DNA from: Anaerolineae bacterium
Lineage (GTDB): Bacteria > Chloroflexota > Anaerolineae > DRVO01
Assembly (NCBI GenBank): GCA_013178015.1
Contig: JABLXR010000028.1
Coordinates: 1 to 49,824 of the forward strand
Direction: 5' to 3'
Length of the DNA: 49,824 nucleotides
The notes beneath the pieces are model-generated. The model was not told the DNA's origin and did no database searches. It worked only from the letters and a program-made list of their open reading frames with translations. This document shows, in pieces, positions 43,790 through 49,707 of this stretch. Positions within the stretch are counted from its first letter, which is position 1; every line of letters starts with the position of its first letter. The translations under genes were made by a program, and so were the position numbers.

Positions 43790-46681
<2,892 letters not shown>

Positions 46682-46744
46682 TCCTATCTCTGGGTTTTGC
46701 ATATGTGGCATCACAGGCACGGCTGGTAAGACCTGCAACTTGAC

Positions 46745-46924: not shown

Positions 46925-46930
46925 TATAAT
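46925..46930 (+). promoter_or_regulatory. -10 element of the LysM gene
   Basis: A perfect TATAAT 39 bp before GTG 46969. No good -35 at 16-18 bp is visible. The uvrA promoter lies on the other strand about 150 bp away. Confidence 0.4.
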
Positions 46931-46968
46931 GAAAGGCCAGTTGATGGGAGCGAGTTGGGAGGCAGGCC

Positions 46969-47724
46969 GTGACCAGGCAGCAGGCGGTGGCGCTTGTGAT
47001 CTGCAACGCCGTGGTATCGCTGGTCATTAGCCTCACGGTTGTGTTGGTCTTTGAGCGCTATCGGACGGTCCCCACGCCGGAGGGCGTGGCGTTGGCGCAG
47101 GCCGCGGCGGCCACGGAACCGCTCGCGTTCGATGGCACCCCGATAACCGGCCCCACTGCCGAGCCCCTTCCCCAAATCACCTACGTGGTCAAGAGCGGCG
47201 ACAGCCTCGGTTCAGTGGCATTCCAGTTCGGGGTGACGCTCGACGCTCTCATGCAGGCCAACGGCATCGAGAACGCCAACTACATTGTCGCCGGGCAGTC
47301 TCTGGTGATCCCCGTCAGTGGACCGGCGCCGGCAGCCACAGCTACCCACCGACCGCCTCCCACCATGGCGCCGGTAGCCACCCCTGGCAGCGGGGAGGCC
47401 CTTGTCGCCATTGAATCCGTCAGTGGTGCTGGCCGGGTGGATGAGGAGTACGTCAGGCTGGTGAACCGGGGAGCTCAGGGCGTGGCCCTAGAGGGCTGGG
47501 TGCTTGAGGATGAGGACGGGCACGCCTACACCTTCCCTAACCTGTTCCTGTGGCGGAACGGCACGGTGTCGGTGCATAGCACCTTTGGCAACGACTCGGC
47601 TACTGACCTGTACTGGGGGCTGACCGAAGCGGTCTGGAGCAATCCAGAGGAGAGGGTCCGTCTCCTGAACGCGTCAGGCGAGTTGGTGGCGGAAGTGAAA
47701 GTGGGAACGGCCGATGCCGGATGA
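46969..47724 (+). CDS. Membrane-anchored LysM and lamin-tail domain protein
   Basis: 251 aa, GTG 46969 behind GGGAGG. One membrane helix, residues about 6-27 (AVALVICNAVVSLVISLTVV). A LysM domain, about 70-115 (ITYVVKSGDSLGSVAFQFGV; GQSLVIPV), binds peptidoglycan or other glycans. A Thr/Pro linker follows, then a lamin-tail domain, about 140-250 (ALVAIESVSGAGRVDEEYVR; LEGWVLEDEDGHAYTFP). This trio is a common surface architecture in Chloroflexota. Its end overlaps the next small gene by 11 bp, so the four genes from here to 49601 form one unit. Confidence 0.88.
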   Translation: MTRQQAVALVICNAVVSLVISLTVVLVFERYRTVPTPEGVALAQAAAATEPLAFDGTPITGPTAEPLPQITYVVKSGDSLGSVAFQFGVTLDALMQANGIENANYIVAGQSLVIPVSGPAPAATATHRPPPTMAPVATPGSGEALVAIESVSGAGRVDEEYVRLVNRGAQGVALEGWVLEDEDGHAYTFPNLFLWRNGTVSVHSTFGNDSATDLYWGLTEAVWSNPEERVRLLNASGELVAEVKVGTADAG

Positions 47725-47914
47725 TGGCCGGCGGCGCCAGATGAAAGAAGCGGTGCGTCAGATCGTGGTAACTCGGGAGCGCACCCCTCGCGGCCCCCGG
47801 TGGGCGGCGGCCTGGCGCCGAGTGCTCCTGCGCTACGTGGGCGAGTTGGAGAGACGCAAGGCGCGCCCGTTGGACGCGGTGCCGCCGGCCCAGAATCATT
47901 CGGAGCGCAGGTGA
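47714..47914 (+). CDS. Small basic protein, unknown
   Basis: 66 aa (MPDDGRRRQMKEAVRQIVVT onward), ATG 47714 inside the end of the LysM gene, stop overlapping the next start as GTGA. Eighteen or so Arg/Lys make it strongly basic. The helix RRVLLRYVGELERRKARPL is amphipathic. No family is recognised. That it fills the gap exactly, with coupled ends on both sides, is the main evidence that it is a real gene; it might bind nucleic acid or membrane. A non-coding spacer cannot be excluded. Confidence 0.55.
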   Translation: MPDDGRRRQMKEAVRQIVVTRERTPRGPRWAAAWRRVLLRYVGELERRKARPLDAVPPAQNHSERR

Positions 47915-48948
47915 CCACCGTGGCGGCCATTGGTGTGCCTACGGGCGTGTGCACCGGAATACGGCCCTTCAACCCCTTCCGGGACTTGCCTCAAGTGACC
48001 CGCCTTCTGGCCCAGGTATTCGGGCCGGAGCTATCGGTCGAGTCCAGCTCGACGGCTCGGTTGGTGCGCTGGATGAGGCGCTTCCCCTCGCTGGGGTGGC
48101 TATGGATGGGTTTCGATGCCTGGTTCGATGGCAATCTAGGCGGATACGTCTGGGTCTGCGGCGACAAGCTGGTGGGCAACGCCAACATCGCGCCGGTGGG
48201 CGTCACTGGGCGCCAGTGGGTTCTGAGCAATGTGGCGGTGGAGGAGGGTTCCCGCGGACGGGGCATAGGACGGCAGCTGGTGGAGGCCAGCCTCAGGTAC
48301 GCCTGGCAGCGAGGCGCCGACCAGGTGCTACTGCAGGTGTGGCAGTCTAACCGGCCTGCCCTGCGCCTGTATGAGTCCTTTGGGTTCCGGTTGTCGGGCA
48401 GGCTCTGGCGGCTGGGGTTGGAACCCGGCCGGCGCCTGAGGCCGCCAGTGGCGCGCAGCGATGAGAGACTGGCCTGGCGACGCGTGCGAGGTGGGGACCT
48501 GGAAGCCCTGAAGGGCATGGTGGCAGCCATGCTTCCCCACAAGCTGCGCCTGCTGCGCCCTTCCCCAGTGAGCGCCTTCCAGGAGGGGCTGTGGCAGAGG
48601 TTGCGCCGAATCCTGGCCGGTTCGGTCACGGGGACGGTGCCCATGAGGCGGGTGCTCTTGAGGGACGGTCGAGTCGTGGGCGGGCTGGCGCTGACGCCGG
48701 TGGAGAAGGAGCGAGCGCGACTGACGGTAGTACTGATGCCGGACCCCTCTGAGGACACTGCGGCGGCGGTGGTGTCGCAGGTCACGACGCTGACGGCGGA
48801 CCCCACGCTGGATCTTCTGGTGGACCTGCCCGAATCCCTGGACCGGCTGCGAGTCGCCCTGGTGCAAGTCGGGTTCGAGGAGCGGGATGCCCTGTTACAG
48901 ATGAGCCTGGAGAGGCCGTATCGAGCCGAGTGGGACCTGGCGGTGTGA
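47911..48948 (+). CDS. Double GNAT-family N-acetyltransferase
   Basis: 345 aa from GTG 47911, five bases after GGAG, overlapping the previous stop as GTGA. The N-terminal half, about 15-165, is a full GNAT: VLSNVAVEEGSRGRGIGRQL is the acetyl-CoA loop (RGxGIG), followed by NRPALRLYESFGFRLSGR. The C-terminal half, about 185-335, follows the same strand order (RRVRGGDLEALKGMV; RRVLLRDGRVVGGLALTP) but without the RGxG loop, so it is probably a degenerate second GNAT used for dimer-like packing or substrate binding. Acceptor unknown. Second-last gene of the overlapping unit. Confidence 0.82.
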   Translation: MTTVAAIGVPTGVCTGIRPFNPFRDLPQVTRLLAQVFGPELSVESSSTARLVRWMRRFPSLGWLWMGFDAWFDGNLGGYVWVCGDKLVGNANIAPVGVTGRQWVLSNVAVEEGSRGRGIGRQLVEASLRYAWQRGADQVLLQVWQSNRPALRLYESFGFRLSGRLWRLGLEPGRRLRPPVARSDERLAWRRVRGGDLEALKGMVAAMLPHKLRLLRPSPVSAFQEGLWQRLRRILAGSVTGTVPMRRVLLRDGRVVGGLALTPVEKERARLTVVLMPDPSEDTAAAVVSQVTTLTADPTLDLLVDLPESLDRLRVALVQVGFEERDALLQMSLERPYRAEWDLAV

Positions 48949-49601
48949 TCAAGATCAGCGTTGACGAGTACGCGGCCAAGTTGACCCGGCCCTTCTTGAT
49001 GGCGAGCTTGGCCACGGTGGACCACTATCTGATCAGCGCCTATTCGTGTTTCGGCGCCATGGCATGGCACCGTCACCTGGACGAGGATGAACTGTTTCTG
49101 GGCTACAGCGGCACAGCCAGCATCGAGACCAGTTGGGGGAGTGCCCAGCTTTCAGTAGGGGAACTGGTTACGGTGCCCAAGGGGCTTCCTCACCGATCCA
49201 CATCTGGGGTGCCGGCGGTGTTGCTGCTGGTGCAGACGCGCGGCCTCGCCAGTCGGCGTAACGGGCACCAACCGTGCCAGGGCCTGGCGAAAGGCCAACT
49301 GCGGAAGGTGTCAGTGGCCCAGGAGGCGGCCCGTCTGACGGATGTCTTTCAGCCGCGACGCATCGCAGTCAGCGATAGCCTGGGGGTAAGCGTCCAGATC
49401 TGCCTCGGGTCCCAGGAATGGCACGCTCATGAGGGCGACCAGCTGGTCCTGTGCCACTACGGCCAGATGACGGTGGAAGGTGTGGGACAGACGGAGCGGA
49501 TCACTCGGGGCGAGTTGGTGGTTCTACGGGCGGGCGAGCACCATCGGGTGGTGTCACCGGAGCCGTCTACGGCCGTGACCATGGCCCAGATGCGGGACTG
49601 A
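48945..49601 (+). CDS. Bicupin protein
   Basis: 218 aa from GTG 48945, overlapping the previous stop as GTGTGA. Two cupin domains. First, about 45-95: AWHRHLDEDELFLGYSG and GELVTVPKGLPHRS. Second, about 150-210: EWHAHEGDQLVLCHYGQMTV and GELVVLRAGEHHRV. Both carry the HxH...E and PxGxxH-like metal ligands in the usual spacing (the second has AGEHH). Small bicupins include pirins, dioxygenases and sugar-binding sensors. The context with a GNAT and a LysM protein does not tell the substrate. It ends the unit; a terminator follows. Confidence 0.85.
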   Translation: MIKISVDEYAAKLTRPFLMASLATVDHYLISAYSCFGAMAWHRHLDEDELFLGYSGTASIETSWGSAQLSVGELVTVPKGLPHRSTSGVPAVLLLVQTRGLASRRNGHQPCQGLAKGQLRKVSVAQEAARLTDVFQPRRIAVSDSLGVSVQICLGSQEWHAHEGDQLVLCHYGQMTVEGVGQTERITRGELVVLRAGEHHRVVSPEPSTAVTMAQMRD

Positions 49602-49684: not shown

Positions 49685-49707
49685 CCCTGGGCGGAGCCAG
49701 GGCTTTT
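49685..49707 (+). terminator. Intrinsic terminator of the LysM-GNAT-bicupin unit
   Basis: CCCTGG (49685-49690) and CCAGGG (49697-49702) with a 6-base loop, followed by CTTTTC. It lies 84 bp after the bicupin stop. Confidence 0.6.

Follow-up and report, generated by a model that had tools for sequence, protein, structure and literature searches.

Four consecutive genes close to the end of a 49,824-nucleotide stretch of an Anaerolineae genome (hereafter the window, meaning that whole stretch) overlap at each of their junctions, and this raises the question of whether their products form a system or whether genes that usually live apart have been packed together in one lineage. An earlier note on this DNA favoured the former, suggesting that the four products work jointly, perhaps in modifying surface material. 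We think it likely that the locus is a genuine translationally coupled operon of four genes, specific to one family of Anaerolineae, which was assembled from normally separate genes rather than conserved as a multi-protein system.

All four genes lie on the forward strand. A gene for a single-pass membrane protein of 251 aa with LysM and LTD domains (46969-47724, GTG start) is followed by an ORF for a basic microprotein of 66 aa (47714-47914, ATG start), by a tandem GNAT acetyltransferase gene (47911-48948, GTG start, 345 aa) and by a bicupin gene (48945-49601, GTG start, 218 aa). A direct check of the ORFs reproduced exactly the overlaps of 11, 4 and 4 bp reported earlier, the last two being GTGA overlaps, so that the unit has the single strand and the overlapping junctions expected of an operon. 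Elsewhere in the window one of 24 same-strand junctions overlaps, and class-wide 133 of 778 do (17%); runs with at least three consecutive overlaps number just 2 among about 1,025 in the class. These base rates come from a purpose-made simple gene caller, and the start positions behind them are therefore approximate. Since three overlaps in a row are so rare in the class, the coupling of the four genes exceeds what is expected by chance.

The signals around the unit are less clear-cut than the earlier note implied. The single -10 that it placed in front is real as a sequence (TATAAT, 46925-46930, forward strand, about 39 bp before the start of the LysM-LTD gene), but no recognisable or consensus -35 was found ahead of it. 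GGGAGG at 46957-46962 is the likely ribosome-binding site of the same gene. Behind the unit the hairpin taken for a terminator is indeed present (49685-49702, forward strand), but it is a weak stem-loop with no more than CTTTT behind it, and a scan for terminators, with one site against a mean of 1.4 in shuffled sequence, gave no excess over shuffled expectation. The contig stops at 49824, so the sequence beyond the unit is not visible. A single transcript would probably start near 46936, and the overlapping stop and start codons would hand ribosomes on from gene to gene.

The domain identities first proposed for three of the products are borne out. The first protein has Pfam matches above cut-off to LysM (1.5e-14) and LTD (1.8e-16), both located behind an N-terminal transmembrane segment that is found in 30 of the 34 members of its cluster, the window protein included, and it is 37-41% identical over its full length to eight aligned relatives. 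It has the architecture (transmembrane segment, LysM, LTD) of the single-pass envelope proteins of this kind in Anaerolineae, but the neighbours of its gene, the 66-aa gene excepted, differ from theirs. Orthologues (E<=1e-20) are present in 35 of the 100 genomes of the class that we compared, frequently next to a divergent His_Phos_1 histidine phosphatase, DJC28_CD, an M19 dipeptidase and tRNA-Thr_ED. A literature search on the combination of LysM and lamin tail returned nothing useful. The product would be anchored in the membrane and expose LysM and LTD on the outer side, where they may hold the cell wall and perhaps also polysaccharide or DNA. As a separate observation, many Anaerolineae have, directly after the M19 dipeptidase, a tRNA-Thr editing domain of archaeal type that stands alone (PF08915; for example at loci L112 and L114).

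The third protein matches Pfam GNAT (1.8e-17), and its AlphaFold model (pLDDT 87, pTM 0.84) contains two GNAT-like halves, with the tandem GNATs 3tt2, 1ozp and 2wpw among the best PDB matches in Foldseek. The acetyl-CoA loop (R/Q-x-x-G-x-G/A) is intact in the N-terminal half as RGRGIG; in the C-terminal half a remnant RG..E kept in relatives is lost from the window copy, as judged against the family consensus. The confident model and the PDB matches thus agree with the degenerate second half that had been noted. MshD (1ozp), the Sphaerobacter thermophilus GNAT (3tt2) and the clavulanic acid pathway protein (2wpw) likewise have two GNAT folds per chain and one intact acetyl-CoA loop, and the matches span both halves, but identity is just 9-19% and the window protein is a fast-evolving branch. 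We would expect the N-terminal half to acetylate a small molecule or a protein, and the degenerate half may shape the substrate pocket or a dimer. The family is found in 94 of the 100 class genomes, mostly in single copy, with DUF2089, SHOCT, DUF4097, MFS and phage_holin_4_2 genes as typical neighbours; in the source genome itself (contig C5) DUF2089 adjoins SHOCT-domain genes with no GNAT between them. A GNAT tree, tried for the origin of the window copy, gave no placement for its very long branch (1.94), and a related-loci search of genome contigs with the GNAT as query had no match.

Two Cupin_2 matches (3.5e-14) identify the fourth protein as a bicupin. For comparison with the cupin metal motifs (HxH...E, PxGxxH), its sequence reads HRHLDEDE and PKGLPH in domain 1 and HAHEGDQ and AGEHH in domain 2. 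The protein presumably binds a small molecule or a metal and would be co-expressed with the GNAT. Full-length relatives (E<=1e-25) occur in 19 of the 100 genomes, in widely differing gene settings. In three of these the bicupin gene adjoins that of mevalonate kinase and has on its other side a diphosphomevalonate decarboxylase or an isopentenyl-phosphate-kinase-like gene. These bicupins and that of the window are of one two-cupin family, with identities of about 32% in G099 and G007 and of 41% across part of the protein in G074, whereas in the family of the window the gene is coupled to the GNAT. At L238, L240 and L241 bicupins lie inside mevalonate-pathway clusters (mevalonate kinase, diphosphomevalonate decarboxylase, isopentenyl phosphate kinase), and the one at L240 overlaps each of its two neighbours by 4 bp.

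Genes that overlap tightly in a single genome need not form a conserved system, and each of the four genes has a different usual neighbourhood. No second complete copy of the unit was found in the 100 genomes, which include three of the window's own family (the source genome G000, G001 and G002); for the most part the genes lie dispersed, each among the neighbours usual for it, and we rejected the idea of a conserved four-gene cassette after this comparison. Only pieces recur. G002 is the only genome apart from that of the window with a GNAT gene directly upstream of the cupin gene; the two overlap by 7 bp, the GNAT being a 151-aa C-terminal piece truncated by the contig (blastp E 3e-6), and UvrA, an FAD protein and MiaB are nearby as in the window. 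In G001, of the same genus as the window, the UvrA N-terminus and all beyond it are missing at a contig edge, so that the absence of the unit there is uninformative, and we rejected this assembly gap as evidence of non-conservation. The other piece is confined to one genus (g3, genomes G003 and G041), where the order is LysM-LTD, phosphatase on the opposite strand, DJC28_CD, a homologue of the 66-aa protein, M19, tRNA-Thr_ED, DUF2089 and GNAT. This array is collinear with the window, with five other genes interposed, and its order LysM-LTD...66-aa...GNAT could reflect an older functional link. The source genome also has two UvrA paralogues, 58% identical (window 43790-46702 and G000:C40:53855-56671).

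While the operon itself is ordinary, being made of individually common genes, the 66-aa protein is its one unusual part. It was described as an unknown basic protein, and it has no Pfam, NCBIfam or PDB sequence match above cut-off. Its frame is conserved, contrary to the condition that the earlier note named as refuting its idea: a single-sequence search finds homologues within the class at E values down to 2e-11, profile searches extend the family to other families of Chloroflexota, R21, E22, P25 and W30 are invariant across 21 aligned sequences, and omega (NG86) is below 0.6 in all related pairs, indicating purifying selection. The predicted structure, of low to moderate confidence (pLDDT 72), folds as a hairpin of two helices. 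The protein thus has both features by which we define the RE..P....W family here, the four invariant residues and the predicted hairpin, and judged by sequence it is a member of an undescribed, conserved Chloroflexota microprotein family whose partner gene differs by lineage. A small-protein family with so clear an invariant motif is directly testable, and we regard it as the most interesting part of the locus.

How, then, did the four genes come together, and do they act together? The four products might serve surface modification, with the GNAT acetylating envelope material to which the LysM-LTD protein binds and with the bicupin and the 66-aa protein assisting; such a dedicated system would fit the tight coupling and the collinear order in G003 and G041. 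We nevertheless consider it quite improbable: in almost every relative the genes lie apart, which leaves joint working of the products unsupported; DJC28, M19 and others are interposed in the very genomes that show collinearity; an obvious membrane anchor is present in the first protein only, the GNAT and cupin sequences having by eye no apparent anchor or signal; and the usual neighbours of these two are unrelated, non-envelope genes. It is less improbable, though still doubtful, that the unit descends as a remnant from an ancestral superlocus (LysM-LTD, His phosphatase, DJC28_CD, 66-aa, M19, tRNA-Thr_ED, DUF2089, GNAT), still present in g3, by loss of the genes in between, with the cupin gene added later. 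Order and strand agree with this in G003 and G041, DJC28_CD is absent from all three genomes of the window's family, and the M19 genes of G000 are on other contigs. However, the superlocus is found in one genus only, in whose third genome (G072) the GNAT is not adjacent to it; the GNAT tree, with its very long branch, shows no special kinship between the window and g3; and the LysM-LTD and GNAT genes are far apart elsewhere (0.7-1.8 Mb in G012, G028 and G067, among others). A remnant would in any case be one version of the history behind the operon assembled from separate genes that we prefer, with the same function.

A further alternative concerns the 66-aa ORF alone, which may be a regulatory leader: its translation would control the downstream gene, and the protein itself would be of little importance. 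In several lineages the ORF shares 4-14 bp with the gene that follows, and that gene varies: M19 in g29 and g3, where the separate ORF overlaps it by 4 or 14 bp, and in f58 a protein of about 670 aa, overlapped by 8-14 bp in most cases, with MoxR on the other side. Family members also lie beside a Ser/Thr kinase in f17 and, with weaker matches, beside DUF4442 in f22. A leader is hard to reconcile with an amino-acid motif that is invariant across lineages under purifying selection, and with fusions in which the family forms the C-terminal domain of a DJC28_CD protein (L116) or the N-terminal domain of an M20 peptidase (L201), and we think it unlikely. The domain is also C-terminal in L115, L117 and L187, related proteins without recognisable DJC28_CD. 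The 66-aa protein matches the tail of L116 and related fusions, but it stands alone in the window, and DJC28_CD (DUF1992) has no match in G000, G001 or G002; a literature search on DUF1992 in bacteria yielded nothing useful. In the operon that we favour, the microprotein would be a cytosolic, basic two-helix hairpin acting with its coupled gene or tuning its expression. More tentatively, the whole family might be Chloroflexota-wide, translationally coupled adaptors or regulators that swap partners by lineage (M19 dipeptidase, MoxR/sigma-like operon, Ser/Thr kinase, DUF4442 thioesterase-like protein, GNAT) and are sometimes fused to them. At the f58 loci (L189-L200, for example L189:6149-9358) MoxR is an ATPase and the protein of about 670 aa has a weak N-terminal match to sigma-70 region 4, and the gene of the microprotein-M20 fusion (L201:3030-4358) adjoins one that by eye resembles peptide chain release factor 1.
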